NCBI GenBank assembly: GCA_964036195.1
Contig: OZ038456.1
Coordinates: 10,912,001 to 10,976,000 of the forward strand
Source of the DNA: Sphaerolaimus hirsutus
Taxonomy: Eukaryota > Nematoda > Chromadorea > Monhysterida > Sphaerolaimidae
Length of the DNA stretch: 64,000 bases
Direction: 5' to 3'
Shown: piece after piece, positions 3,989-57,330 of the stretch
Layout of the letters: the number at the start of each line of letters is the position of its first letter
Numbering within the stretch: position 1 is the first letter of the stretch
Position numbers and translations under genes: made by a program
The notes under the pieces: model-generated
Database searches by the model: none
Told to the model about the DNA's origin: nothing
The model's input: the letters and a program-made list of their open reading frames with translations, nothing else

Positions 3989-4506
3989 TTATTTTACAAC
4001 CTCTGTTGACACTTTCTTTCTGCTTGACAAAACATTTTGCCAGTCATGTCTGAAATCTGGGAATTTACCCACAATTAAATTTCCGCATGAAACAATTAAA
4101 CACTCAACAGCAAGAGCACAAATAGCTGAAAAGAAACCAATTAGGAACAAATAAAACAGTGCCACAAAGTATTTAAGCTGCATTGATGTCACTTTCTCAA
4201 ATCCATGTCCCTGCAAATGATGCTGCATTGGGTGAACAGTCATATTCATTTTTTTCAACTGCCTTGCTAGACCTTGAGAACCGGATATTATTGCATCCTG
4301 GTAGATTCTATATAAACTGTGTTGCCCAGAAATCATCATTGATGCAAAATTGAGAGCCTTCATTTGGGGAAAATCCCTCCTACACATGAAACTGTGCATA
4401 ACTAAATTATTCGCGAGTGGAACTAGAGATGGTTTACATCCACCAGTAAACATCAACGTCATGCAGAACAATCCTTCCAAATATGAAGTGATCATAACAC
4501 CATTTC
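3989..4506 (-). CDS. Last exon of probable ionotropic receptor (S2 lobe and TM4)
   Basis: Reading on the minus strand, a strong acceptor (cttttttcag) precedes 4506, and the frame runs 171 residues to a TAA stop at 3989-3991. Only one of the three frames is open, and it needs a preceding exon ending in phase 1, which the exon at 6008-7063 supplies. Residues about 112-137 form one long hydrophobic helix (starting YFVALFYLFLIGFF) ending in an acidic residue, the pattern of TM4 in insect and crustacean ionotropic receptors (IRs). The upstream 100 residues would be the second ligand-binding lobe. The C-terminal tail is short and basic. IR identity comes from the order of segments across the gene, not from a database match. 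A different ligand-gated channel is possible. Confidence 0.6.
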
Positions 4507-7063: not shown

Positions 7064-7396
7064 CTGTGTGTATTATCAAAGTTTATTTTTATTGATAATT
7101 TCTTATTTGCAAATTCTAAATATATATTCAAGTGGCTTGAATTAATATTTACATTTATCTACAAAATAAAAATTTTGACTTTAATCAGGTTGGGTGGAAA
7201 AGGGTAATTAATCAGTAAGATTATGTTAACTTTGAATTCTTCATTTAGATACTTTTACTTGGTTCAATGAAGTGCATTATGTGTTAGTGCAAAATGTTTG
7301 GGAAACGTTTTTTCATGCTTCATGAATGTAGCATGTCAGCATTTTCTGACAGGTGATTTGAAAAACACAAAGGAAAAAACCACATGCCTCAATGAC
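7064..7396. other. Receptor intron
   Basis: AT-rich sequence with no element ends, no ORF and no repeat that I recognise. Confidence 0.4.
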
Positions 7397-7600
7397 CGCT
7401 TCAGCTGTGCCAGAAAATGGATCGTAAACTTGGAGATACTTTGTGACGAGAATCTTCTGATACAAGCTGAGAAACAGGAAGCAGGAGACCACGGTGACGA
7501 AGCCAAAGAGCCTGGCCGCGGTTGAGCTCCTGTGCGTGATTCTGGGGGGGCTGGAATGGGGCAGCACCAAACGCAGCGCCGACCACAACTGACTGCCTTC
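7397..7600 (-). CDS. Receptor exon with pore region and TM3
   Basis: A 204-bp exon (68 codons, phase 0 at both ends). The acceptor caccttccag lies before 7600. The proposed donor is GTCATT, which is weak, so the 3' edge is uncertain. After a short pore-like stretch (LVLPHSSPPRITHR) comes a basic turn and a hydrophobic helix (ARLFGFVTVVSCFLFLSLYQ) followed by KILVTKYL. An R, then TM3, then a Tyr-rich exit is how ionotropic receptors look in this region. The codons here are GC-richer than the surrounding intron, supporting real coding sequence. Confidence 0.62.
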
Positions 7601-7841
7601 CTGGAAGGTGACACTCACCATTTGTGGTATAACAAAAATTGGACAGGTGACGAATAGTTTGTTCTACCCAATAATCGGTCATTGTTGGCACTTTCAAAAA
7701 AACTTGTGGGTCTTATCAAAAAATGAAAATTGCCACACTTCAATAATCGGTTTGATGGCTGCACAGATTTTTATTACTTTCACTATTTTACCAAATTTGA
7801 ATCAATGTTTAGTCATTTTCTTTAAAAAAATCATTACTCAC

Positions 7842-7862
7842 AGTTTGAGGTCTCATCTCAAC
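7842..7862 (-). CDS. Seven-codon exon tail left beyond the M insertion
   Basis: On the minus strand, CAG|GTTGAGATG... continues the TM1 exon after removal of M and reaches an excellent donor (ACT|GTGAGT) in phase 0. The next exon (7397-7600) also starts in phase 0. The acceptor for this short exon, TTCACAG, is supplied by the TSD copy of element M. It encodes VEMRPQT. Confidence 0.6.
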
Positions 7863-7869
7863 CTGTGAA

Positions 7870-8701
7870 TAGGGTTCGGACGATATCACTTTTCGATATA
7901 TTTTTTCTGAAATACTATATCGATATTCGATATTTTTTCCTGAAACTCGATATTCGATATCGATATGAGATGAACCTTCGATATCAATATTCAATATTAA
8001 AAAATGCCCGATATTCGATATCGATATTTTGATATTTTCAGTATTTCGATATTTTGCTTTGGGTACTGCAAGGCATATTTTTAGTGGCATATTGTATTTT
8101 CATGTAGTTGTAAACATGGTTGATCAACTCTATACTGAAATGTAAATGGTGATTTTAACAAGAAGGTTCACAACATTCAAAATGAGAAAATGGAAGAAAA
8201 ACAAGGTAAACACTAAACACTGGTCATCCAAGTAAAATCAAACCTTGTTGCTGGGTGTGGACTGCCATTGCTCTGACCCATGCCCACAACATCATGTCGC
8301 AAGAAGAGCAGCATATCCACCTTTTCTGGTAGGTAGGAAACCAAACCAACTACAAAGGAGAAAGCACTCCAACCAAAATGAAATTGTAAATACTTAACTT
8401 ATACTTATCAACTAAAATATTATAAACACATCACATCAATCACAAAGATATCTCAAATTGAAAATAATACCTTAATTTGGGGACACAATACAGGTTTTGA
8501 TATATCACAAAAATGGTTGATATTCGATATCGATATTCAAAAATAGTCAATATTTGATATCGATATTCAAAAATGGTCAATATTCAATATCGATATTTGA
8601 TATTCTCTCAAAATGGTCGATATCGATATTCAATATTTGATATGAAAAGACAGTCGATATCCGATATTCAATATTCGATACGATATATCATCTGAACCCT
8701 A
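7870..8701. mobile_element. hAT element M, TSD CCTGTGAA, sitting as an intron
   Basis: The TIRs TAGGGTTCGGACGATAT and ATATCATCTGAACCCTA are flanked by perfect 8-bp repeats CCTGTGAA (7862-7869 and 8702-8709). The arms are arrays of ATATCGATATTCGAT words. About 8240-8340 on the minus strand retains a transposase-like peptide (LPEKVDMLLFLRHD), matching the C-terminal motif of BED/hAT transposases. The insertion point is within a receptor exon. The minus-strand boundaries G|TAGGG and TTCACAG|G create a GT...AG intron whose removal restores the exon exactly. Confidence 0.9.
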
Positions 8702-8702
8702 C

Positions 8703-8857
8703 CTGTGAACAGTTGCATTTAGAGAAGAAATAAATTCCCATCACAAAAATGGCCAGACATGCAGTGATGACGAGCCACACTGTGGGCTGGTAGATTGAGA
8801 TGAAGTGTTTTATGGGCTCTTCCAATTGTTTCTGAATATCACATGCTATAAAAACAT
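8703..8857 (-). CDS. Receptor exon with TM1
   Basis: A 155-bp exon with acceptor attatttgcag before 8857. The only open frame uses two leading bases to finish a codon, so the preceding exon must end in phase 1, as the exon at 11435-11591 does. The peptide runs from the end of the first ligand-binding lobe (KQLEEPIKHFISIY) into a hydrophobic helix beginning WLVITACLAIFVMG, the TM1 position in ionotropic receptors. It ends CAG at the boundary with element M, which provides the GTAGGG donor. Confidence 0.62.
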
Positions 8858-9399
8858 CTGCAAATAATATAATGTGGTGGTTGGTGTGTATGAACATCCT
8901 ATATTTGGCTTGGCTGTGGGGTCTAAACACTGATGGCAATTCACAACACTTTGCTGTAAAGGCTGGCCGATGGCGAAATGCGTTGAGTGGCAAAATGTGT
9001 AAACACTATCAATGCGATTCACACTTTTTCTAATAAGTGGTCATTTTGGCAATCTGTTACTGTGTATACTTGCATTGCATACTGCACGGGAATTTTTCAC
9101 ATACATTTTATATTTATTCAAGTCTTTCAAAAAATGCAATGATTTTTTCCCAAACCAAACACAATTTTATGATTTCATATACATACTGCACTGATTTGAC
9201 ATTTGCTGTGAAACATGTCCAAAGACTACCGTATTTCTCCGATCAAAGCACCCCCCATTCAAAGCTCCCAGGATGCCTTGCTGTGCAAAATGTTCCCTGT
9301 AAAGCACCCGGGTGCTTTACTTCTCATCTGAAAAAATTGCCATTAAAATTTAAAAAAAAACATTAAAAAATTAAAAAAATTGTGTGTGAATGTGATTAT
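8858..9399. other. Receptor intron
   Basis: Mostly AT-rich. About 9228-9312 contains a fragment of the H-like family (accgtatttctccgatc followed by C-rich words). No exon is recognised. Confidence 0.4.
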
Positions 9400-10561
9400 C
9401 AGGTTGGTTTTATAAGATTTTTTTGTGTACAAATTGTATACAACTTGTATTTTTTATATATTTTATTCTTATTTCATCTTATTTTACGTTATTTTATTCC
9501 CAAAAGTTGTTAATAGAATAAAATGACACCATTTTACAAAAAAATTTACAAAAATTATACAAAAAATCAGAATCATACATGCAAGGAGAGAAAAATGTTA
9601 TCATTATACCTTTACATGAATAAAATAAAATAAAATACCTTTAAAATGTTATCATTATACCATTATACCTTTACATGTTATCATTATACCTTTACATTCC
9701 ATTACTTTACAAAAGCTGCATGCAGTAAGGATTGTTAGCTAACTGCAAGTGTAAACTTACAATTATTGATAACAATGGTTTGCTTTTGTAAAATGTCATG
9801 CAAAGTGACAATTGTCCTGACAAATGTAAAGTAGTGTGAATTGTCATGCAAAATGTCATGTTTCATGTCAAATGTCAAGTAAAGTGGCAATTGTCATGTC
9901 AAATGTCATGCAAAGTGTAAATTGTGTATCCAAATCTTATGTTTTTGTATCCAAAGCTTATGTTTTGTATTCAAATATTTTTTTTGAATCCAAATGTTGA
10001 CATAAGATTTGGATTATGAAACATCAAGATTTAGATACATAACATAATATCTGGTCACAAAACATAAGATTTGGATACAGAACATAATATATGGACACAA
10101 AACATAACATTTGGATACAATTTGCTTGACAATTAACACTTTAATTTATATTTGTCATGACAATTGACACTTAACTTTACATTTGTCATGACAATTGACA
10201 CTTTGCATGACATTTTACATGACATTTGACACTTTACAAAGCTTCAGGACTGCCCCCAGTTCTGCGAATAAATGGGTAGAAGCTCAAGCAACAACATAAT
10301 TTTTTTACAAAAAATATGAATTTTTATACAATTTTACAAAAATATGAATTTTTAGGCTATTTACACAGGTCCCGGCCGGGGACCGGGACCTGTGTAAATA
10401 GCCGAATTTTTATACAATTTTACAATAATTTTACAAAAATTTGAATTTTAATACATTTTTATTTTTATTTTGAAATTTTCCATTTTATTTTATTTTATTC
10501 TTACATTTTCCATTTTGTTTTTATTTTATTCTTTATTTTTTCTGACATTTTGCCAACCCTG
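9400..10561. mobile_element. hAT element C4, TSD GTGATTAT/GTCATTAT
   Basis: The ends CAGGTTGGTTTTATAA and GCCAACCCTG are flanked by 8-bp repeats differing at one base. Arms of AAAATTTTAC / ATTTTATTTTATT enclose arrays of TGTCATGACAA-like and TTTGGATACA-like words. It matches the copies at 22667-23730, 28141-29206 and 39710-40915. The 49-bp element at 10355-10403 is inserted in its right arm. Confidence 0.85.
10355..10403. mobile_element. 49-bp minimal D element, 9-bp TSD GAATTTTTA
   Basis: Two 21-base inverted repeats (GGCTATTTACACAGGTCCCGG and its complement) are separated by 7 bases and flanked by perfect 9-bp repeats GAATTTTTA (10346-10354, 10404-10412). It contains nothing but the two termini of the D family, yet shows a complete transposition footprint. 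Confidence 0.95.
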
Positions 10562-11786: not shown

Positions 11787-13759
11787 TAGGGTGTCAAAAA
11801 ATTTTTTTTACGGAAAACGGAAAACGGAAAGGTAAAAATTTTTCACTTTACGGAAAACGGAAAACGGAAAGGTAAAAAAAAAATTTCTGCCGGAAAACGG
11901 AAAACGGAAAGGTAAAAAAATTTCACTCAGCGGAAAACGGAAAACGGAAAGGTAAAAAAAAATTGTCGGCCGGAAAACGGAAAACGGAAAAATGAAATGC
12001 CGGAAAATGGAAAACGGAAAGCAAAATTTTCACGGAAACGGAAAAAAATTAAGTGAAATTAGCACGGTAATAGACAAATTTGCAGAAGGAAAACCTGCAT
12101 GCAGGTTTGCCTGTTTGGCTTTGATGCTGGTAGCTGTACATTCTGCAACTATGGATCATGCCTGTAACTTCACTTGTAGTTCAAGCTTAACTGAACCAAC
12201 AAAAAATCATCAAAAAGTAGCCATAGTGGCCATAGGAAAGGAAACACTACGACAATTTCACAGTCTAGAAGCAGTGGGAATCACTGATGACCCCTATGCA
12301 ATTGATGACAACATTGCAGAGGAGATGATAATAAATAGCATAAAATTCAACAACAACAACAAATGATACTATATTGACTGGCCGTATAAAGAGAGTATCA
12401 GTGACCTGCCCACGGGAAAAGCAGAAGCCTTGGTGCGGTTTAAATCACTGATAAGAAGATTCAACAAAGATCCAAACTTATTTGAACAATACCAGAAAGT
12501 TTTGGATGACCAACTGGAAAAGGGAATAATTGAGATCTGTGACGACAAAACAGACAACGAGGGGATTCATTACCTGCCACACCAGCCAGTAATCACGCCG
12601 GGCAAATCGACATCATGCAGAATCGTGTACGATGGGTCGGCAGGTAAGCCCAGTTTCAACGAGTGCCTTTTTAGATTACCAATTACAACACCATTAGCAC
12701 TGGGCCTACTCCTGAGGTTCAGGGCAGGCAATCTAGCATTAATTGCCAATATTGAAAAGGCATTTTTGCAAATAGGATTGCATGACCAACCTAGAGACTA
12801 CACACGATTTTTTTGGCTGAAAGATGCCTCAAAACCAGTAACTGAAAATAACTTAATAGTACTTCGTTTTAAATGCATACTGTTTGGACTTGTCTGCAGC
12901 CCAGCAATTTTGGGAGCAGTCATAAAATACCATTTAAATGTGACAATAAACAACATGAATGAATATGAAGAAAATGAAGGGGAATGAAACCAGTTGGCAA
13001 TGATAATAAACAACATTTACGTCAATAACTTCATCATGAGTGTCACGAATGAAGTTGAAGCTTTAGAACTATATTACAAAGTAAAAGCTTTATTTAACCA
13101 ATGTTCTATGAACATGAGGGAATGGCTGTCAAACTCCAGATCAGTCATGAATGAAATAGCAGAAAACGACAGGAGTCCAAAGGTGAATAAAATTGTCGCA
13201 GTAATGGGCATGAAATAAAATCACCGAATGGACTTGCTGGCAATATCAACACCAAAATTGCAAATTGACAGCATCACAACACCAACCAGATGAAACTTGA
13301 ATAAATTATTGGTGTCAGCATATGACCCAATTGGGTTCACAGCACCTGTTTCACTGACCCTGAAATCCCAGTTGTCAATGCTGCTCCAAGAGACAAAAAC
13401 AACACAATGGAATGAGCCAATTGAAGATAAATACAGATTGGAAAAACAATGGAAAAATGCCAGAAAACTGAAAATCGAGCCAGAAAATGGAAAAATGGCC
13501 TGGTAAAACGGAAACGGAAAGGTAAAAATTTTTCAGCCGGAAAACGGAAAAATGGGCCGGAAAAACGGAAACGGAAAGGTAAAAAACTTTCAGCTGCCGG
13601 AAAACGGAAAACGGAAAGGTAAAAATTTGTCGGCTGCCGGAAAACGGAAAACGGAAAGGTAAAAATTTTTCGGCTGCCGGAAAACGGAAAACGGAAAGGT
13701 AAAAAATTTTCCTGCGGAAAGGCGGAAACGGAAAACGGAAACGGAAATTTGACACCCTA
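11787..13759. mobile_element. hAT element K1 carrying a BEL/Pao fragment, TSD GAATCAAC
   Basis: The TIR TAGGGTGTCAAA / TTTGACACCCTA is flanked by perfect 8-bp repeats GAATCAAC (11779-11786, 13760-13767). The arms (11800-12045 and 13450-13745) are arrays of ACGGAAAACGGAAAGGTAAA. Between them lies about 1.37 kb of BEL/Pao pol. The same pol-arm junction recurs at 2970-3000, indicating that the chimera moved as a unit. Confidence 0.9.
12062..13440 (+). pseudogene. BEL/Pao pol fragment (linker, reverse transcriptase, connection) inside K1
   Basis: One reading frame runs through the whole fragment, interrupted by point stops at 12364 (TGA), 12985 (TGA), 13216 (TAA) and 13294 (TGA) but by no frameshift. 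In order: a linker (FHSLEAVGITDDPYA), the RT fingers and palm (LPHQPVITPGKSTSCRIVYD, then IEKAFLQIGL and FGLVCSPAILG), the palm motif at 13018-13029, the MREWLSNS segment, and the AYDPIGFTAPV motif typical of BEL elements. The catalytic YVDD is YVNN, so both metal-binding aspartates are lost. No gag, integrase or LTR is present. It is a dead, captured fragment. Confidence 0.85.
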
Positions 13760-14415: not shown

Positions 14416-14876
14416 TAGTGATGTAAGAGCGCCATGGCGCTGGCGCCTGGCGCTAGCACCAAAGCAAAAAGCGCCATGACGCTTTTGGCGCTTGGCGCTA
14501 TCTTGTTGTGGCGCCGTTGGCGCTTGGCGCCATGCCCATGAATAGCGCCATGGCGCTTCTGGCGCTTGGCGCTATTTTTGCCTGGCGCCAGGAACAAAAT
14601 GCCTGGCGCTGGCGCTTGGCGCTAGCGCGAAAGCAAAAAGCGCCATGGCGCTTCTGGCGCTTGGCGCCATGCCCATGAATAGTGCCATGGCGCTTCTGGC
14701 GCTTGGCGCTATTTTTGCCCGGCGCCAGGAACAAAATGCCTGGCGCTGGCGCTTGGCGCTAGCGCCAAAGCAAAAAGCGCCATGGCGCTTCTGGCGCTTG
14801 GCGCATTGTTTCTCTGGCGCTATTGGCGCTTAGCGCTGGGGGTCGGAAAAGCGTCATATAGTCTTGGCGCTTTTCA
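14416..14876. mobile_element. hAT-like element F4 (GGCGC-word family), imperfect TSD
   Basis: It begins TAGTGATGTAAGAGCGCC, with about 400 bp of tandem-like GGCGCTTGGCGCTA and GCGCCATGGCGC words in partial duplication (14510-14600 resembles 14650-14740). The flanks tgcatacc / cgcatacc match at seven of eight bases, but the right TIR has lost its last bases. Confidence 0.65.
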
Positions 14877-15266: not shown

Positions 15267-16027
15267 CAGAGTTGTTAAAATACCGGTATTTTTGGAAAGC
15301 GTAAGCGTATGCGTAAATACACTTTCCAAATTTTGAGTATGAATACTGTAAGCGTAAGGTATTTTTAAAATACCTAGGAAAGCGTAAAAAAAAGCGTAAG
15401 CGTAAATTTTTTTTGAGAGAGCGCTCTTGCTATTGAGCATCGGAAAATACCCTTGCTTTCACATTTAGATCAATGCATCACAGATTCTGTTCATTTTTGT
15501 AAAGTGAATACTTTCACAATCAAGCTCTCAGCGACATTTTTTCCACTTGGTAGTCTGCTCTTTGATGTAGATGGCAACTTATGGACAGCGACACTCAATT
15601 CCTCCTCACCTTGTAACTCGGAGTCGGTGCTGTCGATGGCGACAACATCGTTGTCGGAATCCATTTGCACCCCCAAAATTCCTAATCTGAAGCCACGATA
15701 TTGCAAAGCGATACAATTTAAACCACACATTTGTATTTCGACACAAATTGTGCATGCGCCGCTATTTTCAGTGTTTTACTGCACACACGCAGTCATTTTT
15801 TTGGTACGCGTTGTCGTTCATTTTCATTTTTGTAGTTTTACTCTTTTTCAAAAGCGTGAAACTGGACTGTGTGAAAAGTTTTTTACGCTTTTAGTATCCG
15901 GGTAAATTGGCCGGGAAAGCGTAATAAAGCGTACGGGTATTTTATGAAAGCGTAAGCGTAAGCGTAAGTATAAATACCCATTTACCCGGGTATTTCGGGT
16001 AAGCGTAAATACGCTTTCGCAACTCTG
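15267..16027. mobile_element. hAT element B2, TSD GTGACAAC
   Basis: CAGAGTTGTTAAAATACC and GCTTTCGCAACTCTG are flanked by perfect GTGACAAC repeats (15259-15266, 16028-16035). The arms repeat GCGTAA and end in CCCGGGTAT words. The interior shares a block with B1 (gcacacacgcagtcattttttt in B2, complement in B1). The minus-strand interior has a short open stretch (about 15491-15700) of unknown origin. Confidence 0.93.
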
Positions 16028-21024: not shown

Positions 21025-21233
21025 TAGTGATGGAAAAAGCGCCAGACTTTTGGCGCCAAGCGCCAAAGCGCCATGGCGCTTTTCTGACCCTCAGCGCCAA
21101 GCGCTAATGGCGCCAGAGCAAAATGGCGCCAAGCGCCAAAAGCACCATGGCGCTTTTCTGAACCTCAGCGCCAAGCGCCAATGGCGCCAGAGCGTAATGG
21201 CGCCAAGCGCCAATAGCGCCAGCGCCAAAAAAA
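21025..21233. mobile_element. hAT-like element F5 (GGCGC-word family)
   Basis: It starts TAGTGATGGAAAAAGCGCC and continues with GGCGCCAAGCGCCAA words. The right TIR is not visible. Confidence 0.6.
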
Positions 21234-22666: not shown

Positions 22667-23730
22667 CAGGGTTGGTTTTATAAAAATTCATTTTAGTAAA
22701 ATTGTATAAAAATTGTATTTTATTTTAATTTTATTCTTGTTTCATTTTATTTTATTCCCAAAAGTCGTTAATAAAATAAAATGACACCATTTTACAAAAA
22801 TTTTACATTAATTTTACAAAAATTTTACAAAAAATCGGAATCATGCATGCAAGGCCAGAAAAATGTTATCATTAGACCTAAACATGAGTACCTGTGACAA
22901 ATTTTCCCATTACTTTACAAAAGTTGCATGCAGTAGGTATTGTTAGCTCGCTGCAAGTGTAAACTTACAATTATTGATAACAATGGTTTGCAATTTTAGA
23001 AGAAGGACTACTGGACTATGTTGGGCGCATTTGTAAAATCTCATGCAAAGTGTCAATTGTCATGACAAATGTAAAGTAGTGTCAATTGTCATGCAAAATG
23101 TCGAGTGTCATGTCAAATGTTGAGTGTCATGTCAAATGTCAAGTGACATGTCAAATGTCATGGAAAGTGTAAATTGTATATCCAAATGTTAGGTTTTTGT
23201 ACCCAAAACTTATGTTTTGTATCCAAATCTTATGTTTTGTCTTCGCATGTTCACATAAGATTTGGATTCAAGGACAAGATTTGGAAACAAAATGTAAGAT
23301 TTGGATACAGAACATAAGATTTGGATACAAAACAAGATTGGGATACAATACATTACACTTTAATCTATATATTTGCCATGACAATTGACACTTCACTAGT
23401 CATTTGCCATGACAATTGACACTTTGAATGGCATTTTACATAACATTTGACACTTTACAAAGCTTGGGACTTCTCCCCAGTCCCACGAATAAACAAGTAG
23501 AAACTCAAGCAACAAGATAAAGATTTTACAAAAAATATGAATTTTTATACAATTTTACAAAAATATGAATTTTTATACAATTTTACAAAAATTTTACAAA
23601 AATTTGAATTTTTATACAATTTTTGTTTTTATTTTGAAATTTTCCATTTTATTTTATTTTATTTTATGCTTAAATTTTCCATTTTATTTTTATTTTATTT
23701 TTATTTTTTTCAGAGATTTTGCCAACCCTG
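22667..23730. mobile_element. hAT element C1, TSD GTAGTGAT
   Basis: CAGGGTTGGTTTTATAA and TTTTGCCAACCCTG are flanked by perfect GTAGTGAT repeats (22659-22666, 23731-23738). The interior has TTGTCATGACAA and ATCCAAATCTTATGTTTTG words. No ORF of note. Confidence 0.93.
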
Positions 23731-28140: not shown

Positions 28141-29206
28141 CAGGGTTGGCAAAATCTCAGAAAAAAATAAAAATAAAATAAAAATAAAATGGAATATTCA
28201 AGAATAAAATAAAATAAAATAAAATGGAAAATATAAGAATAAAAATAAAAATTGTATAAAAATTCGAATTTTTGTAAAATTTTTGTAAAATTGTATAAAA
28301 ATTCGTATTTTTGTAAAATTGTATAAAAATTCTTATTTTTTGTAAAATTTTATCTCGTTGCTTGAGTTTCTACCTGTTTATTCATGGATCTGGGAGCAGT
28401 CCCAAGTGTTAAGTGTCCAATGTCATGTAAAATGTCATGCAAAGTGTCAATTGTCATGACAAATGTAAGGTCAAGTGTAAATTGTCATGACATGTAAAAA
28501 ATAAAGTATCAATTGTCAAGTAAATTGTGTCCAAATCTTATGTTTTATATCTAAATCTTATGTTTTGTATCCAAATTATGTTGTTGTTGTATCCAAATCT
28601 TATGTGAACATTTGGATACAAAAACATAAGGTTTGGATACAAAACATACTATGGATACAAAAACACAAGATTTGGATACACAATTTACACTTTGCATGAC
28701 ATTTGTCATGACAATTGCCACTTCGCTTGAAATTTTACATGACACTTGACATTTTGCATGAGAATTGACACTTTACTTTATATTTGTCAAGACAATTGAC
28801 AAATTGCATTACATTTTACAAATGTGCCCAGCACACTCCACTAGTCCTTCTACTGTAAATGCAAACCATTCTTATCAATAATTGTAACTTTACACTTGCA
28901 GCTAGCTAACAATACATACTGCATGCAACTTTTGAAAAGTAATGGAAATGTTTGTCACAGGTTTTTCATGTATAGGTCTAATTATAACATTTTTTTGGCC
29001 TTGCATGCATGATTCTGATTTTTTGTAAAATTTTTGTACAATTTTTGTAAAATTTTTGTAAAATGTGTCATTTTATTTTATTAATGACTTTTGGGAATAA
29101 AATAAAATAAAATACAATGAAACAAGAATAAAATAAAAATAAAATAAAATTTTCATACAATTTTTATACAATTTTACTAAAATGAATTTTTATAAAACCA
29201 ACCCTG
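28141..29206. mobile_element. hAT element C2, TSD GCCAGGTG
   Basis: Inverse orientation copy of C1, CAGGGTTGGCAAAATC ... AAAACCAACCCTG, flanked by perfect GCCAGGTG (28133-28140, 29207-29214). Same internal TTTGGATACA and CATGACAATTG arrays. Confidence 0.93.
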
Positions 29207-39131: not shown

Positions 39132-39709
39132 CAGAGTTGTACAAATACTGGTATTTTTAGAAAACGTAAACGTAAACGTAAATACCTTTTCCAAATCAAA
39201 AGTATAAATACTTAAACGTAAGGTATTTTTAAAATACCAAAAATACATCAAAAAGCGTAAACGTGTAAATGTTATATGTCGTATTTGCCACTGTGCTTTG
39301 GAAAATACCATTATTTTTGCCTTTGGATGGGTCAATCGCTGATTTCCATGCAATATCTTCATGTTTTTAGCACTACATACTCACCATAATCAACAACATG
39401 AGTGAGACAACTATTATTATTATTAATTTTTATTAATTATCAACTAAGTATTTTAGCAAATTTCACAAGCCCATGGCTAAATTGTCACTCTACAGCTACC
39501 GATATAAGGGGAACAGACAGTTATTTCAGTGCATTGAAACTTTTTAAACTGTTTTTAGTCTATTGTGGAAAAACACTCCATTAAATATACTGTGAAATCT
39601 GCTACACCTATCTGGAGAAGGTACCTTGAATTGTGTTTAATTTTTAATCATAAATATGATATTTCCATCACCATTTTGTTCATAATTTGTTGTCAGTTTA
39701 TGTCAAAAT

Positions 39710-40915
39710 CAGGGTTGGTTTTATAAAAATTCATTTTAGTAAAATTGTATAAAAATTGTATAAAAATTTTATTTTATTTTTATTTTATTCTTATTTCATT
39801 TTATTTTATTTTATTTTATTCCCAAAAGTCGTTAATAAAATAAAATGACCCGTTTTACAAAAATTTTACATTAATTTTACAAAAATTTTACAAAAAAATC
39901 AGAATTATGCATGCAAGGCCAGAAAAATTTCATCATTAGACATTATACATGTGACAAATTTTGTGACAAACTTGTGACAAATTTTTCCATTACTTGACAA
40001 AAGTTGCATGCAGTAGGTATTGTTAGCTAGCAGCAAGTGTAAACTTACCATTATTGATAACAATGGTTTGCATTTTTTAAAGGACTACTGGTGCCAGTTC
40101 CGCAAAATGAGAAGTGAGAAATGAAATGGCAAAGGCAAAGTAATCGAGCAAAGGCGGAGTCAGAAAGGCTGAAGGTGGCGGCTTGGCCTTTGCGCTTTTA
40201 CTTCGTCTTTGCCATTTCACTTCTCACTTCTTATTTTGCAGAAGTGGCCCCTGGACTGTGCTGGGCACATTTGTAAAATATCATGCAAAGTGTCAATTGT
40301 CATGACAAATGTAAAGTAGTGTCAATTGTCATGCAAAATGTCAAGTGTCATGGAAAATGTAAATTGTATAACCAAATCTTAGGTTTTTCTATCCAAATCT
40401 TATGTTTATGTATCCACATTTGGATACAGAATGTAAGATTTTGATACAAAACATAAGATCTGGATACAATACAGAAGATTTGGATAAAAGAGAAGATTTG
40501 GATATAAAACATAAGATTTGGATACAATTTGCTTGACAATTGGCACTTTAATTTATTTTTGTCATGACAATTGACACTTTACTAGTTATTTGCCATGACA
40601 ATTGACACTTTGCATGGCATTTTTCATGACATTTGAGACTTTACAAAGCTTGGGACTGCTCCCAGTTCCACGAATAAACAGGTAGAAACTCAAGCAACAA
40701 GAAAAATATTTTACAAATAATCTGAAGTTTTATACAATTTTACAAAAATATGAATTTTTATACAATTTTACAAATTTTTTACAAAAATTCAAATTTTTAT
40801 ACAATTTTTATTTTTATTTTGAAATTTTCCATTTTATTTTATTTTATTTTATTCTTAAATTTTCCATTTTATTTTTATTTTATTTTTATTTTTTTCTGCG
40901 ATTTTGCCAACCCTG
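39710..40915. mobile_element. hAT element C3 nested in B4, TSD GTCAAAAT
   Basis: CAGGGTTGGTTTTATAA ... TTTTGCCAACCCTG, with perfect GTCAAAAT (39702-39709, 40916-40923). It contains the T foldback at 40092-40250, which is absent from C1 at the corresponding place. Confidence 0.93.
40092..40250. mobile_element. T-family foldback nested in C3
   Basis: TGCCAGTTCCGCAAAATGAG ... TTTTGCAGAAGTGGCCC. The arms repeat gaagtgaaatggcaaag. Comparison with C1 (about 23005) shows where it inserted. The TSD is short (CTGG or TGG) and not certain. Confidence 0.65.
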
Positions 40916-41329
40916 GTCAAAATACAGTTAACTTTACCTACATTCTCTGTGCGGCATCGACTATGGTCGGTAGACAATGGTGAGGTGACTATGTATCGGA
41001 GTGTATAAAATGTTTTAGCTTTTGTTTGTAATCATCCTAATCGCTGCACTCAAGTGATCGCCACATTATTCAGATCATTTTAAGTGCTCAACGATCAAAA
41101 TTTGTAGAGAATTCATGGAAATATGCAGTTCCCTCTGAGGGCGCGGCTACTGAGAAACTACTAAATATCAGAATTTTTACGTTTTCCCTAGTGCCCAGGT
41201 ATTTTGGTCAGGAAAACGTAATAAAAAAATGTAATGGTATGTTTGGAAAATGTAAACGTAAATATAAATACCCAAATAATCGGGTTTTTCGGGTAAACGT
41301 AAATATGTTTTTCCAACTCTGCAAGATTC

Positions 41330-41691: not shown

Positions 41692-42467
41692 CAGAGTTGC
41701 AAAAACGTATTTACGTTTACCCAAAATACCCGGTTATTCGGGTATTTATACTTACGTTTACGTTTACGTTTTCATAAAATACCGTTACGTTTTGTTACGT
41801 TTTCCTGGCCGAAATACCCGGGTACCAGAGAAAACGTAAAAAACGTTGTGAGACCCAATTTTTTTTGGCAAAATGTAATTTCCGTCATAAATTTCCGACA
41901 ACTTTAAAAAATTTGCGCGCCAGCGCACACTTTTCCTCCACAGAAGCCGTATTTTCAAAATAGGTATATTCAATATTCAAATTATTCTATAGTTAGACCC
42001 CACCTCCGTGCAGAGTATTACGTATTACTTCCCAAACTCGAATTGTGCCAAATGCTTATTAAAAAAGTCAGCGGATGCTGTTATTTAGTGGCTTCCGTGG
42101 ATTGATTTTGAGCTATTTGAAGATCAAATGTTAATCAACTCGATGAATCGCCATAGTATAAATTTTTTGTGACAACACTTGGGAAAACGTTGACAGAACG
42201 TGAAAAATTGATTGAAAAACCGGCGAAAAAATAGAAGGGCAGCTTCCAAAAGACGGTGTCTCCATAATAGAAAGTCGGTGAAAAATACAAGGGCGCCCTT
42301 CTATTAGATGAAACACGGTAATAATGTTTTTACGTTTACGTTTTATTTTACGCTTTCCCGGGTATTTTAAAAATACCTTACGTTTTAGTATTTATACTTT
42401 CATTTTGGAAAAGGTATTTACGTTTACGTTTACGTTTTCCAAAAATACCAGTATTTGACCAACTCTG
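41692..42467. mobile_element. hAT element B3, TSD GTGGGTAG
   Basis: CAGAGTTGCAAAAACG and TTTGACCAACTCTG are flanked by perfect GTGGGTAG (41684-41691, 42468-42475). The arms use the ACGTAA word. A V-family right-end fragment (ttctattagatgaaacacgg, about 42295-42313) is inside. Confidence 0.93.
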
Positions 42468-43601: not shown

Positions 43602-45552
43602 CAAGGACGTAGCCAGGGGGGGGGGGGGGGTGGGGGAGCGGCCGCCTCCCTCCCCCCCCCTTCCCAGGTAGGACAAGAAAATATGCTCAAAATGGCACGT
43701 CCGTAAAGCGATATTGTCGGCAGTTCGGAAAAATTTTATATATCAAGATATCATGTCGGAATGTGAAGTACAGTTTCATACGTGTTTGAACGTGGTGCAC
43801 AGTTTAAATCATCTAAAATGTCATCTTAAATTAATTTAAATTTTACCAAAGCACCAATTCTTCATAAAATTAGTCCAAATTTGGCATGAAAGTAGATAAA
43901 TGTACCCCATTTTATATGTCAATTTGTCAGCTTGACCGCATCTTGAGCATTTTCTTGAGTTCAGCATTTTGCTGTTGCTGTTCAATTATATGCACCGCAT
44001 GCACGTCCAAACACAATGGGACATAAACACCTTCCCGGTCACGTCCGGCACCCATTTTTTGATTTTAATTCTTACATCCTATCCCCAGTTCTAGGGCACC
44101 CCAGAGGCTGAAACTTGGGGGAGATATTGGCGCAACCCCCTCTACTTCGCATGAATTTGGGGAGTCGCGGCGACAACTCTCAGGGTGGGTCGCCCTAAGT
44201 GCAAAAATTTTTTTTGGCTTTTTTGGTGTCCCACAGCAGGTCCGGCACCCGCTGATTTCTGAGCTGTGGGAGGAGTATAAATCTAAAATTTTGGAGATGT
44301 GTTACCGACACCACTCCCCTACTATACACTATTCAATAATGTAAGATAAATGTGAAAAAGTTCTCAAAAATTCGCTTATTCTCTAAAAAACACCACTCCC
44401 CAATAGATGGATGGCAAAAAATTCACTTTTTCGAACTTTTTTATAAGACACTTGAAGAGCTGGTTTATGATACTTCAAAAGGAACGGTTTGATGTCTAAA
44501 GTTATGTAAAGAACCATACCTCTAAAATGTATGCATTGCAAAATTTACTTGGGGGAAATTTTATGACATCATAATGACATCATTGCAGGAACAAAAATTT
44601 ACAAAATTTACACTTTGAAATTCCCCCCAAGTAAATTTTGCAATGCATACATTTTAGAGGTATGGTTCTTTACATAACTTTAAACATCAAACCGTTCCCT
44701 TGAAAGTATCGTAAACCAGCTCTTCAAGTGTCTAATAAAAAAGTTCCAAAAAGTGAATTTTTTGGCATCCATCTATTGGGGAGTGGTGTTTTTTAGAAAA
44801 TAAGAGAATTTTTTAGAACTTTTTTGCATTTATCTCACATTATTGAATAGTGTATAGTAGGGGAGTGGTGTTGGTAACACATCCCCAAAATTTTAGATTT
44901 ATGGCCCTCCCACAGCTCAGAAATCAGCGGGTGCCGGACCTGCTGTGGGACACCAAAAAAGCCAAAAAAACATTTGCACTTAGGGCGACCCACCCTGAAA
45001 GGGGTCGCCGCGACCCCCCAAATTCATGCGAAGTAGAGGGGGGTTGCGCCAATATCTCCCCCAAGTTTCAGCTTCTGGCGCGCCCCAGAACTGGAGATAG
45101 GGTGTCAAAAGTAAGATCAAAAATAGGGTGCCGGACGTGACCGGGAAGGTGTTTACATGTTCAAACACATATGGAACTGTCCTTCACGTTCCGACATGAA
45201 ATCTTGCAGTATGAAATTATGCATTTAACACAACAAATGGGGGACATTTATTTATTCCCATACCAAATTTGAGCACTTTTCATTCAAAATTGACGCGTTG
45301 GGAGCCAATTGAAACCGTGCGCCTGATGTGCGCCACCCGGTACATACAAGTAAAACACTATTTGGCGCCAATGCCAACGCCAATGGCGCCATGGCGTCGC
45401 GCCTACGAATGGCGCTGGCGCCAAGGCGCCATTAGTTTACCACAGCGGTCAAATCTTAGGGGGGGGGGGGGGGGTGCCGCACCCGCCCCGTTCGCCGAGC
45501 TCCGTATACAATCCGCCCCCCCCCCCGCTCAAAAATCCTGGCTTCGTCCCTG
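43602..45552. mobile_element. hAT element O, 1.95 kb foldback, TSD TTTGGCGT
   Basis: CAAGGACGTAGCCAGG and CCTGGCTTCGTCCCTG are flanked by perfect TTTGGCGT (43594-43601, 45553-45560). The inner part is a very large inverted repeat: 44030-44570 pairs with 44620-45150 around a spacer near 44590 (gcacccgctgatttctgagc pairs with its complement at 44915). G/C homopolymer runs follow each TIR. No transposase ORF. Confidence 0.9.
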
Positions 45553-49235: not shown

Positions 49236-49464
49236 AGCCTGGCGCCCTATTTTTCAAATGGCGCCATGGCGCCCTTGGCGCTTGGCGCCCTCTTTCTGTG
49301 GCGCCCTTGGCGCCATGCGCCCACTTTCCGCATGGCGCCATGGCGCTCTTGTCGCCTGGCGCCCTTATTCTGTGGCGCCCTTGGCACTTGGCGCCCAGTT
49401 TCCAAATGGCGCCATGGCGCCATTGGCGCCTGGCGCCCTTTTTTCTGGCGCTTTTCCATCACTA
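49236..49464. mobile_element. hAT-like element F9
   Basis: GGCGCCCTTGGCGCTTGG words ending GGCGCTTTTCCATCACTA (49464). Left end decayed. 49465-49742 after it is unassigned AT-rich DNA. Confidence 0.6.
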
Positions 49465-52326: not shown

Positions 52327-52730
52327 AAAGGCATTGGGGCACCGGTGCTTCGGTGCTGGGCACCGAAGGCGAACGGCACCGGTGCTGGTGCGGTGCGCTG
52401 CCCTTTTTCGAGGGTGCCCTGCTGGTAACGATGGCAAACCCTCCAAAAAAAAGTATTTAAATTTTTAAGTGTTTTTTCCAAAATGAATTTTCGAATTTTC
52501 AAATTTTTCCTAAAATTAATTTTCGAATTTCGAATTTACAAATTTTCAAATCTTTTTTGGCAATTTTCGAATTTTTTTGGCTATTTTTCAAATTTTTTCA
52601 AAAAATTTTCAAATTTTTTTAGAAAAATATTGAATCTGAAGCTTTAAACATGGAATTTGGACTGTTTTGGAAGTGGCTATACTCGGCAGACGTGCTAATC
52701 TACAAATAGATATGATTTATATCTTTGGCT

Positions 52731-53555
52731 ATAACAATGCCAATTACGTATACTTTCGTAGATTGCACATGCTTCCAGTGAAATTGCTGGCCATTTGCTT
52801 TGGGTTGTACCTAACTTCCGGCTGTAAAAGGCACATGCATGTAGTATTTTTTCGTCCTCTGCTCGTTGTGCTAGCACGCCTGCAACAGCAATTTTAGAGG
52901 CGTCCGTGATAATTATAAACATATGTTTAGGATCGGGAAATTGCAAACATGGGCTTCCTAACAATGCTTCCTTGAGCTTATGAAAAGCTTCCAGTGCCTT
53001 AGGTTTTGCTGTCAAATCCACTGGGGTGTCGCTATTGTAATTTTCTCTTGGTCCCGTACGCGTGAGATTTGACAAAGGTACGGCTAACTCTGCGCATCTG
53101 TGAATCATGCATCTAAAAAAACCTATAGCTCCTAGAAAACCCTTAACCTCTTTTACGGTAGTGGGTACCGGCCAGTCCTGAATTATGTGCCGTTTATCAT
53201 CCGGTACGCACACGCCGTCACGGCCAATCATAAATCCCAGAAAACGTACGGCTGTGACGCGTGCGAAAAAACACTTTTTCGGACTAATTTTGAAATTATT
53301 TCTAATTAATCTTTCCAACACCTGCCCTATGTCGTATAAATGTGTTTCCCAGGTTGCACTATAAATTAGTAAATCGTCGATGTATAATAGCACATTTCGA
53401 TGTATTAAGCCGGCCATAGCTAATTCAAAACAGCGCTGCGCTAAACTAGGTGAGCATTTTAATCCCATTGGTAAACGTTTCAGTTGAAATTGTCCAAAAA
53501 CATTTCTAAATGACGTAATGTGTCGATCATCTGGATGCAAAGCAATGTTAGTTAT
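52731..53555 (-). pseudogene. Ty3/gypsy reverse transcriptase and start of RNase H, inverted
   Basis: On the minus strand a single frame encodes RT from the palm entry (LHPDDRHITSF) through the catalytic YIDD (about 53373-53384), the FLGFMIGRDGV segment and the thumb/connection, to the first half of RNase H (TDAS with the first catalytic Asp, then SLEACAIYESIRNWHCY). It stops abruptly at a tyrosine codon (52731), and the protein resumes on the other strand at 53556. The RT fingers, protease and gag are missing. The segment is inverted relative to the rest of pol, so no full polymerase can be made. The catalytic aspartates are intact. Confidence 0.88.
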
Positions 53556-54530
53556 CTGGCGGGACGGCCCTTTGAAGTCTGGACTGACGCCAAGAGTATT
53601 TTGTGGGTAAAGAATCCTAATTTAGAGACTACCCCGCACGCCATGCTACACAAGTTCGCTTTAGCAATTACGCCGTATCAAATCACGTTCAAGCATTTGA
53701 GGGGAAAAAGCAATGAATTAGCAGATGCATTATCTAGAAGACAAGACGCGCCAGTGGTATTCGATGAGAAAAAGGACCTGGATGAGGCTTTTGAGCAGTT
53801 TGCACAAGTTACGTGCCGTGAAATCGCTATCCCGCACGATAAACAGGTTACGGTAGCTGCGGCGAGCAGGGCAGCGTACCAGCCAATCAGCGAACGAAGC
53901 GGCGTAAACGAGGAGGCAGAGTTACTGCGACCAATCAGCGACCGGACGCGCGGGCGAAAAGAGGCGGAGTCACCCGGGCTGCGAGAGCGGCAGCGGAATG
54001 CGGAAGCGCCTGGAACTGGAACAATGGCTGGTGGTTCAGGAGCCGGAAATGAAGTTGTTCCGGGTTTAACGAGTGTAACCAAGCATAGTACAATCATGGC
54101 GCTACCTCCCATGACTTCGGTTGATAAGTTGAAGCAACTACAAGCAGAAGAACTGTACATAGCCACAACTATAGAAGTGTGTCGCGCAGATAATTTTTAC
54201 AGTGCCGCGCCGTATTTTATTGATCAATACGGTCTATTATGTCGCCAAGCGGGAACGTCCCAGATACCAAGTATACAGTTATACGACCCAGTGTGTATCC
54301 CGTCGGAATTAGTTCCATTCGTGTTAGAATTAGCTCACAATCACCCCACGGCGGGCCATTTAGGAATAATAAAAACATTTGAAAGGTTACAGGAGTTCGC
54401 GTGGTTTCCAGGAATGCGGCCAGAAAGTGCACGCTGGGTTGCTACTTGCCCTTTGTGCAATGCCAAGAAAGGTCTCAGAGCGGCAATGCGAACTCAAATG
54501 GTGTGCCTCAAACTCCCGCCAGGTAGCCAA
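53556..54530 (+). pseudogene. Ty3/gypsy RNase H end and integrase zinc-binding domain
   Basis: The frame begins at the exact point where the inverted segment stops (LAGRPFEVWTDAKSILWV, third catalytic Asp of RNase H), continues to the ADALSR motif, a variable linker rich in Arg/Glu/Ser, and the HHCC zinc finger (HNHPTAGHLGIIKTF ... CPLCNAKKG). The frame then shifts by one near 54475-54530, before the catalytic core. The Tyr codon at the breakpoint is present on both sides. Confidence 0.85.
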
Positions 54531-55347
54531 AAGGCCAGGTGATGTGATAGCAGTAGACGCAATAGGACCTTTACTAACCACGAAACGCAGAAACCGACAT
54601 GTGTTACCGAAACCTATATTTAGTGTGCCGGCTATTATACTCAGTGATAATGCCCCTAGCTTTACTGAGGGCACTTTTGCCAAGCTTTTACAATATTTGA
54701 ATGCGACCCAACACACGTCTTTTGCGTACACCCCCAAGAGTAATGGAATGGTGGAACGTAGGAATGGTGTTCTGATGGAAATAGTATCCCACTACGTAAA
54801 TCGTACACATGACGATTGGGACATACATTTAGGCGCCGCTGTACATGCGTACAATACATCAAAACACCCTTCTTTGCAAACCACCCCCTATGCGTTGCTA
54901 TTTGGCAAGCCTGCTGCGTCCATGTGGGAGCGTATGATCGAGCCTCCCCCTGACACTGAGGCATTGCCTTCATTGCCGCATAAGCGCGCTCTTATAAATG
55001 AATTAGGCGCGCGTCTGACCACAGCACGTGAAGCGGCGCACACCGCTTTAGCAAAGGCGCAGCAAAAGGAACAATTTTACGCCAATCGCCGTGCGCGTCG
55101 ATTGAATGTGCAACGCGGGCAAGCGGTACGCGTGTACACGCCGCGTATTACTCAGTTGACGGGCCCTAGTAAGAAATTTGCGCCTCGCTTTATCGGTCCG
55201 TATGAGTGCATTGATTATGCCCACCCATTAGTGACTTTGTTCAACAATATTAATAAGAAAATATATGTAGTTCATGCAGATCGTTGCAAAGCAACCAGTG
55301 AATATTTAATTCCCCCTTCTTACAGTGAATTATACGGCGACGACTAG
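54531..55347 (+). pseudogene. Ty3/gypsy integrase core and C-terminal domain
   Basis: The catalytic triad is readable: Asp in VDAIGP (54556), Asp in LSDNAPSF (54646), Glu in GMVERRNG (54754). The last two are 35 residues apart, the classic DD35E spacing. The first two are only 29 apart, against roughly 55-60 in relatives, so about 25-30 residues after RRNRHVL are deleted. The C-terminal domain (APRFIGPYECIDY ... VHADRCK) is intact. Stop at 55345-55347. The zinc finger is in another frame upstream. Confidence 0.85.
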
Positions 55348-55575
55348 AATTAATTAATTGTGCGTTAATTAGCCGTTACGATAGCAGCCGTCACGCCACA
55401 TCACCCAGACCAAGGTAGAAAAAGCGTGATGTGTGTGTAAAAGTGTGTGTGTGTGCGTAGGAAGCTCGTGCACCCCTTTTGCCCACGGGCAACTGGACCG
55501 CACGAGTCTTTATTACTTTCCCCGTTCATTAAAAAACTTCGCAATTAATTATTTTATCACATTGTTATATTTATA
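55348..55575. other. Spacer between pol and the 584-codon ORF
   Basis: Contains a gtgtgtgtgtaaaagtgtgtgtgtgtg tract split by aaaa, ttaattaattgtgcg repeats, and an AT-rich leader ending ttatatttata directly before the ATG. It might include a promoter or an LTR remnant. No matching copy was found downstream. Confidence 0.4.
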
Positions 55576-57330
55576 ATGGCTTCGGCCTCTCGCAAACGCC
55601 CATTTGAAGGTGCAGACGCCCCGCCCATCAAATCCAAGGAGACAAATACACATGGTGCCTGCGGCGGTGGAACCATTCCCCCGCGACAACTTTACGGCGC
55701 GCAGCAGATGCAAAATGGACCGGAAATCTACCCCAGCAGAGGGAAATTTGAAGGTTGGGTAGATCGAGTGTATATTGACACGGGCGCCGACGGGCATGTT
55801 GAGTATCAGTGCCATGTGAGAATTTCTGAGCAAACGATGGCAATACTCAGTGAAAACGAGCAGTGGGTGAATGCGGATGAGGCATATCCGTATTTTTACT
55901 ACTCAAATAAGCGGGCCAAGGCGGCTAGAGACAAACGGACTACCCAGCTGGTGGATCTGTGCGCAAGAATTCAGAAACAACACCCCTCGATGTTTTTGCC
56001 CCTGGTGCGCCACGGAATGCGTTTTTCGGCGACCGCGATCACACAGAAAATAGAAAACCCAAGATACTGGGAGTTTACTGGCGTCGCGATATGGGGTAAT
56101 CAGACAAAATGCCCCTTAAATGTTGCCGCCCCAGTGGTAGTGAGTACGCAGGGCACACAGCGCGTCACTCAAGCGGCACGTACATTGACGCGCGGCGACA
56201 CTTCCGGCTACCAGCCCTATACGAGCAACTGGAAAACAGCGCGGCTGCGGGCGGCCTTCACGCCGTCGAATTACAAGAATCTGGAACCACTGGGCGCGGC
56301 GGAGCGGGGCGATGCCTGGCCGGAAAAGTTGGTCATTTTGCACCACGAATATGTAAGTGACAGCAGAGTGGAAAATTTGAGTGCTGGACAGTTGGGGCTG
56401 GCCCACGTCGAATATCACGACCTGAACGATTTGGACGTGTTTGGCGACGAATTTTACGGCCATGCGTACGGGCTGCAGGTCGCCACGGCCGAGGACATCA
56501 GCACAACGGGCGTCCAGCCGGACACAGAGAACCGAGACAGCATGGACGTATTTCTCAGGTACAAATTGAGTATTTTAGCAGCAGCCCACTGCTACAACGA
56601 GTCATTTCTGCGGTTTCGGGCGAAACGCGCAACGGATGTGTGCGCGCATGTGTTCTGGGAGCACACGCCGCAGGGCACTGCATGCAACATTATGGTGCGC
56701 CGCCCGGACCCCGAGGAATTACAAGCTGACACTTTTGAGGGACCAGAAGAGCAGCGCGTTCGTTTACTGGAGCAGGTGAATACGCAGACACAGCTGCTGA
56801 ACCAGGCGACGCCCATGTCAGTGTTGAGTTTGGTGCAGGCCCGACAAGACGAAGACAAACCAGCGGCGGGCAGCCCCAACTTATCAGTGAGAATTACCAG
56901 TGTGGAATCAGAGCCAACCACTACAATGCTGCGTGCAAAATTGGACATGGCGGCGTCGCAATCAGCACTGCCCCGTACCTTGGAGAGTGGAAGGTACATG
57001 GTGTGCGGCTCAAACGACTTGCCCAATTATGACCGAACCATGTGGTCACTGCAGGCCGCCCTGAACAAAGCGCCGGTCGGCTGGGTGCCAAAAGTGGTTC
57101 AGGGGTCAAAAGTACTCACCCTGGAGGCGCAAATCCAATTAGCAGTGATATTAAATTTGCGTCTGCTGGATGACGAAACTGACTGGGCGCTAATTAGCCG
57201 CGAGGCTAATGAGCTGTACGAATCATTGTTCAGGGGAAAAAATGAACAAATGATTCAGGCCAAATTAGGTGAGTTTCTGCCGCAACAAGGACAGGTAGAA
57301 GTTTTGGGAGCTGTGATCACAGCCGTGTGA
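55576..57330 (+). CDS. Unrecognised 584-residue protein of the E4 unit
   Basis: ATG at 55576 starts an uninterrupted frame with strong coding composition. I do not recognise it. The N-terminus is basic and proline-rich (SASRKRPFEG), then comes a mixed alpha/beta region with many aromatic residues (WVNADEAYPYFYYSNKRAK, about residues 91-110), a second basic segment (DKRTTQLVDLCAR), a central part with acidic patches (EYHDLNDLDVFGDEFYG, about 277-293), a Glu/Gln-rich predicted coil (EEQRVRLLEQVNTQTQLLNQ, about 395-414), and a C-terminal helical part. No zinc knuckle, signal peptide or membrane segment is visible, so it is not an obvious gag or env. It ends TGA, and the next base begins the ATG of the helicase frame. 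A structural (capsid-like) or DNA/RNA-binding role is possible, but nothing in the sequence decides it. Confidence 0.8.
   Translation: MASASRKRPFEGADAPPIKSKETNTHGACGGGTIPPRQLYGAQQMQNGPEIYPSRGKFEGWVDRVYIDTGADGHVEYQCHVRISEQTMAILSENEQWVNADEAYPYFYYSNKRAKAARDKRTTQLVDLCARIQKQHPSMFLPLVRHGMRFSATAITQKIENPRYWEFTGVAIWGNQTKCPLNVAAPVVVSTQGTQRVTQAARTLTRGDTSGYQPYTSNWKTARLRAAFTPSNYKNLEPLGAAERGDAWPEKLVILHHEYVSDSRVENLSAGQLGLAHVEYHDLNDLDVFGDEFYGHAYGLQVATAEDISTTGVQPDTENRDSMDVFLRYKLSILAAAHCYNESFLRFRAKRATDVCAHVFWEHTPQGTACNIMVRRPDPEELQADTFEGPEEQRVRLLEQVNTQTQLLNQATPMSVLSLVQARQDEDKPAAGSPNLSVRITSVESEPTTTMLRAKLDMAASQSALPRTLESGRYMVCGSNDLPNYDRTMWSLQAALNKAPVGWVPKVVQGSKVLTLEAQIQLAVILNLRLLDDETDWALISREANELYESLFRGKNEQMIQAKLGEFLPQQGQVEVLGAVITAV

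Follow-up and report, generated by a model that had tools for sequence, protein, structure and literature searches.

We examined a window of 64 kb, by which we mean the whole stretch of DNA that was analysed, and found that an 832-bp transposon-like element, here called element M, interrupts a probable coding exon of a receptor-like gene read on the minus strand. The features of the locus are listed below in window coordinates, with slashes inside sequence motifs marking splice junctions; target site duplications are abbreviated TSD.

3989-4506, minus strand: probable last exon, presumably of the same gene, with the C-terminal membrane span and a stop codon
7391-7600, minus strand: next exon, with a pore-loop-like stretch and the second hydrophobic span; its acceptor, CCTTCCAG, ends at 7601, in phase 0
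7836-7841, minus strand: presumed native donor GTGAGT of the next conventional intron
7842-7862, minus strand: downstream remainder of the interrupted exon, presumably coding (VEMRPQT), a 21-nt microexon after the insertion
7862-7869, no strand: TSD copy 1, CCTGTGAA, which gives the minus-strand 3' splice site TTCACAG/G
7863-8702, minus strand: candidate new GT-AG intron of 840 nt (GTAGGG...TTCACAG), donor score 4.88, acceptor score 1.55
7870-8701, no strand: element M, a hAT-like, non-autonomous transposon of 832 bp whose ends are TAGGG...CCCTA and whose two shoulders are filled by subterminal repeats rich in GATATC and ATCGATAT
8350, minus strand: best-scoring of the 3' splice-site candidates inside M (position of the last intron base), score 6.27, which competes with the terminal acceptor
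8326 and 8135, minus strand: other internal 3' splice-site candidates in M, scores 4.73 and 2.04
8702-8709, no strand: TSD copy 2, CCTGTGAA, whose last G on the minus strand is base 1 of the new intron
8703-8857, minus strand: the 155 nt of the interrupted exon upstream of the candidate intron (...QPTVWLVITACLAIFVMGIYFFSKCNCSQ), carrying the first membrane span

Three minus-strand exon stretches carry hydrophobic spans, namely M1, a loop that appears pore-like by eye and M3, followed by M4 and a stop codon, as would be expected from the layout of an ionotropic glutamate-like receptor. The upstream exon (8857-8703) codes for the hydrophobic span VWLVITACLAIFVMGIYFF, ends in ...SKCNCSQ and has a good acceptor of its own at 8858 (4.93); its 155 nt and the 21 nt of 7862-7842 are open in one common frame. 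Position 7391 is the end of the stretch examined rather than a located 3' exon end, and the protein queries were made with a partial protein containing a guessed junction between 7391 and 4506. When these queries were compared with Pfam, Lig_chan was retrieved at 8.4 bits with the 304-residue form and at 11.6 bits (E 0.24) with the 127-residue form, the better of the two lying below the curated cut-off of 30.8 bits. The domain appears only for versions that include the seven residues VEMRPQT, a dependence that may be taken as a slight hint, because the scores are far below the cut-off, the 127-residue query with these residues matches SieB about equally well (E 0.21), and the version without them yields the unrelated ELO (E 0.04) and Coa3_cc (E 0.13). 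Among about 5.8 billion proteins, from which candidates of 0.55-1.75 times the query length were taken, the partial query produced 597 candidates, none of them at E <= 10. The receptor query gave one irrelevant match in the PDB (E 1.2), no paralogue better than E 1 was found in the window, and inspection by eye of the minus-strand frames of at least 38 aa within the window revealed no convincing set of upstream receptor or ligand-binding exons. A preliminary description of this DNA had spoken of a receptor exon; the order of the membrane spans fits, but Lig_chan is sub-threshold and these searches returned no homologue, and we regard the receptor identity as a reasonable, tentative reading. 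We may also be dealing with a pseudogene or with a loss-of-function allele.

Element M and other hAT-like elements in the window

We found that the two TSD copies of M are identical at 8 of 8 positions (7862-7869 versus 8702-8709) and that its terminal inverted repeats (TIRs), TAGGGTTCGGACGATAT and TAGGGTTCAGATGATAT, match at 15 of 17 positions (2 mismatches), both of them starting with TAGGG. The extent of the element and its flanking duplication, as given in the preliminary description, are thereby borne out at base resolution. M is present once within the 64-kb window, and its terminal pattern has no exact match in viral contigs or genome contigs, both of which are collections unsuited to an animal. 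The 8-bp TSD and the short TIRs are those of a hAT element, for which the end motif is [CT]AGGG-like. The maize element Ds1 is described as beginning with TAG (PMC5432752). Upon searching the six frames of M against Pfam for a transposase or its remnant, just two matches were obtained, both unrelated and sub-cut-off, and no hAT family was among them, which is to be expected, because M appears to be a non-autonomous copy. The hAT identity proposed earlier is thus well supported by the ends and the TSD, on which it is based, but not by a transposase remnant.

One candidate for such a remnant was considered and rejected, namely the minus-strand frame 8216-8398 inside M (LPEKVDMLLFLRHDVV), which we take to resemble the C-terminus of hAT transposases. 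It found no support in Pfam, PDB sequences, proteins or viral contigs: the PDB sequences gave one match, to a hypothetical protein (E 0.039), the proteins gave no relative, and none of 31 pattern-matching stretches in the viral contigs was confirmed. The same frame overlaps two good acceptor-like sites. Rfam returned zero matches at gathering scores.

Next, pairs of identical 8-bp flanks with YARRG..CYYTR ends no more than 4 kb apart were sought throughout the window, and 100 block shuffles of the window served as the control. The window contains 10 such TSD-flanked pairs with hAT-like ends, compared with a mean of 0.33 per shuffle. M is the best of the 10 (2/17 TIR mismatches), while the best pair in the shuffles had 7/17 and no shuffled pair with an identical 8-bp flank reached two or fewer mismatches in 17. 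Rescanning out to 5 kb recovered the same 10 pairs, and allowing one TSD mismatch (with at most 6 TIR mismatches) added no further pairs in the window. The nine further TIR elements, all with perfect 8-bp TSDs and hAT-like ends, lie at 1038-1787, 11787-13759, 15267-16027, 22667-23730, 28141-29206, 39132-41321, 39710-40915, 41692-42467 and 43602-45552, with 39710-40915 nested in 39132-41321. Their end types are CAGAGTTG, CAGGGTTGG, TAGGGTGTC and CARGGACG, and several of them have end sequences in common (CAGAGTTG..., CAGGGTTGG...), from which it follows that the genome is rich in hAT-like elements. Among the 10 elements, M alone would exactly restore a minus-strand frame.

Several further observations concern the rest of the window. 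The TSD of element 28141-29206, GCCAGGTG, would allow exact GT-AG restoration if that element were transcribed on the plus strand. Arrays of ACAATTGACACTTT- or TTTGGATACAAAACATAAG-like units occur at 9787-10237, 23080-23456, 28411-28820 and 40289-40646, that is, near 10 kb and within three of the elements with CAGGGTTGG ends. Tandem arrays rich in GGCGCC/TGGCGC, with units of 137 and 74 bp, recur at 14518-14804, 21051-21221 and 49241-49451. The region 52695-59504 encodes reverse transcriptase/RNase H on the minus strand and integrase parts on the plus strand, together with a 593-aa frame without a Pfam match, a frame in which a P-loop-like motif was seen by eye, and a frame of 578 aa that matches the AAA_12 helicase family (2.9e-25); no repeat pair of at least 40 bp brackets this region between 50000 and 62000.

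Splice geometry and splice-site quality

On the minus strand the interrupted exon reads ...TGTTCACAG/GTAGGGTTCAGA ... CGAACCCTATTCACAG/GTTGAGATGAGACCTCAAACT/GTGAGT, and the candidate intron runs from 8702 to 7863 as GTAGGG...CCCTATTCACAG. At the donor, CAG/GTAGGG, intron base 1 is the last G of the upstream TSD copy and is followed by the element end TAGGG, and at the acceptor, CACAG/G, the AG falls inside the downstream TSD copy. Both junctions agree with the preliminary description, which had derived one splice site from a TSD G plus the element and the other from the second TSD copy, and its claim of base-for-base restoration also holds: the computed product of removing 7863-8702 is exactly the empty-site sequence, the predicted empty allele being ...TTCACAGGTTGAGATGAGACC.... 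With TAGGG/CCCTA ends, 3,295 of the 65,536 8-bp TSDs (5.0%) allow exact GT-AG restoration, that of M included, and within the interrupted exon the exactly restoring insertion positions number 7 of 169, all around the same AGGT. Exact restoration is unusual, not extraordinary, and it is expected of surviving exonic insertions. Retention of M adds VGFR and then a stop, with 13 stops altogether, so that the protein would be truncated four codons into the element. As in introners, a transposable element lies here in what is probably coding sequence, with splice sites that are predicted to be usable.

We then considered the quality of the sites, which were scored with approximate metazoan splice-site frequencies rather than with frequencies trained on this genome. 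The donor of M (4.88) ranks among the top 0.4% of the 3590 GTs on the minus strand and second of the 94 GTs within 7300-8900, and the terminal acceptor (1.55) is in the top 9% of 2819 AGs and tenth of the 74 AGs in that interval. The 20 bases preceding this acceptor contain 65% pyrimidines. There is one branch-point-like motif, GTGAT, whose A lies at -24, and no AG intervenes before the acceptor. The AG of the other TSD copy (8703) scores higher than the terminal acceptor (2.32 versus 1.55). The best donor within 7300-8900 is ATG/GTGAGT at 7618 (5.94), which precedes the 7601 acceptor by 17 nt and has no role in the gene model, and the second-best acceptor, at 7467 (6.06), lies inside the next exon and is likewise unused; scores alone therefore do not settle usage. 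Calling the candidate intron perfectly spliceable, as had been done, was an overstatement: the restoration is exact and the donor good, but the acceptor is mediocre, three better ones lie inside M, and the 21-nt microexon, whose in-frame skipping had been overlooked, is left behind. A fair description of the splicing of M is that it is exactly restoring and plausible.

Readings of the insertion

M has inserted at this site, duplicated 8 bp and left the splice geometry described above. The explanation that we favour, and hold to be fairly probable, is that a hAT element inserted in a coding exon and is able to act as a new GT-AG intron. Under this explanation, the receptor-like gene on the minus strand would have received a non-autonomous hAT-type transposon in a coding exon, at TTCACAGG, with duplication of these 8 bp. 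CAG/GTAGGG and CACAG/G now lie 840 nt apart, and joining them would rebuild the empty-site frame exactly. The gene would survive, with the spliceosome removing M as a new U2-type intron, and a 21-nt microexon would separate this intron from the older one. Part of the transcripts would probably skip this microexon, in frame and with the loss of seven residues, or use acceptors inside M. That M is spliced, that the gene has survived and that the insertion is recent are points we infer.

Much depends on the 21 nt downstream of M. The GTGAGT that begins at 7841 ranks fourth of the 94 GTs within 7300-8900, although its exonic side, ACT, is poor, and the earlier claim of a strong donor in the right phase is accordingly upheld for the hexamer, which is good, and for the phase, the next exon at 7600 being in phase 0, but not for the exonic bases. 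ACT/GTGAGT scores 2.19, compared with -2.49 for the alternative CAG/GTTGAG, a difference of 4.7 bits, and for this reason the coding reading is favoured; the 21 nt are probably coding, as judged mainly from donor quality. Joining the CAG at 8703 straight to 7600 is also in phase 0, and skipping of the microexon stays in frame. A 21-nt exon is hard to define, and even if M is a new intron the microexon may often be skipped.

The same two donors bear on an alternative that we regard as unlikely but deserving of weight, in which M struck an existing intron at its 5' edge: the exon would have ended at CAG/GTTGAG with the TSD overlapping its donor, CAG/GTAGGG would now be joined to the acceptor at 7601, and the old intron would have been enlarged and given a better donor. 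Both junctions being in phase 0, the frame fits without the seven residues, the present donor is strong, and microexon skipping in the favoured explanation would give identical RNA today. However, the supposed ancestral donor is matched or beaten by about 31% of the GTs on the strand, M would need to have landed by chance on precisely that donor, and Lig_chan appears only when the seven residues are included, though far below its cut-off.

The acceptors inside M bear on another alternative, to which we give slightly less credence still, namely that M did insert in coding sequence and is poorly spliced, being retained or partly exonized through 8350 or 8326, so that the allele would be null or hypomorphic and perhaps present in one haplotype only. 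Three acceptors inside M outscore the terminal one, and retention leads to a stop after four element codons. When the three nearest donors were tested, the pseudoexons after 8350 (29, 72 and 106 nt) and after 8326 (5, 48 and 82 nt) proved open in the entry frame, those of 72 and 48 nt being frame-neutral as well. Yet the donors that would close them are weak (8243: 0.10; 8277: -0.96) or produce exons of at most 29 nt (8320: 2.35), the tested pseudoexons from 8412 and 8135 carry stops, and an exactly restoring TSD is what is expected in a surviving insertion.

A broader version of the favoured explanation, which strikes us as improbable, is that M represents one copy of an animal hAT family acting as a true introner, whose TAGGG end would turn any NNNNNAGG target into AG/GTAGGG...AG/G and which would have seeded many exact, frame-neutral introns across the genome. 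Finally, we consider it very improbable that the flanking frames belong to no functional gene and that one of many hAT insertions produced the splice geometry around M by chance. In favour of this view, the search of about 5.8 billion proteins with the partial query yielded zero homologues and the PDB gave no relevant match, the ten hAT-like insertions within 64 kb amount to many trials, and 5% of TSDs restore by chance. Against it, three exon stretches carry hydrophobic spans in ionotropic-receptor order with a stop codon, and splice phase is consistent between the two exons nearest M.

Comparison with known transposon-derived introns

If M is spliced as in the favoured explanation, the birth of an intron would have been caught with the transposon ends and the TSD still intact, and the introner mechanism would be linked with a hAT in a probable animal genome. 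A simple rule would also emerge, by which TAGGG-ended hATs at NNNNNAGG targets yield exact introns, and this rule is testable genome-wide, given ten hAT-like insertions in 64 kb.

Maize Ds elements are known to be spliced from exons, as for Ds1 in Adh1-Fm335 (Dennis 1988), Ds1 (Wessler 1991) and a Ds de novo intron (Giroux 1994), all cited in PMC3260210. M resembles maize Ac/Ds in its hAT superfamily, TAG end, 8-bp duplication and position within an exon, as well as in its intron-type removal, which is a prediction for M, whereas Ds splicing is reported from RNA work. For Ds1, donors are described at 12, 22 or 33 bp from the terminus and element residues can stay in the message (PMC5432752); in M, by contrast, the predicted donor spans the boundary between TSD and element while the acceptor is contained in the TSD, which would make restoration exact.

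Introners, described from copepods to protists, draw either or both of their splice sites, in whole or in part, from the TSD and leave mRNA length mostly unchanged (Gozashti 2022, PMC9860276). Like them, M is a non-autonomous DNA transposon with TIRs and TSDs and with splice sites derived from the element or the TSD, but introner families comprise 5 to >2,000 copies per genome (PMC9860276), whereas M has one copy in the window. In the accessible part of that article the word hAT occurs 0 times and no hAT family is named. The introner elements of Amoebophrya, as described in PMC7789003, similarly contain inverted repeats within the intron, which is bounded by short direct repeats, although they form many families with largely non-canonical splice sites, in contrast to the GT-AG sites of M.

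In Drosophila sechellia, intron 3 of GM26034 is derived from Doc1053 and belongs to a set of gained introns, and the same source cites transposon-made introns in maize, rice and Oikopleura (PMC3296678). In both GM26034 and the case of M, one transposon inserted in an animal gene and became, or for M would have become, an intron that has TSDs at its ends or close to them, but Doc1053 is a retrotransposon within a gained-intron set (PMC3296678) and M a DNA transposon known from the sequence of one genome. The combination of a TAGGG-ended hAT, a donor straddling the TSD/element junction and exact restoration is somewhat distinctive; we did not meet it in the accessible parts of the open-licence literature, and no priority is claimed. 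The preliminary description had proposed an introner-type mechanism in a hAT, and the geometry fits this proposal, but the mechanism is not new, as maize Ds illustrates, and M is single-copy in the window. With maize Ds and the introners as precedents, M would add to what is already known and not mark a departure from it.
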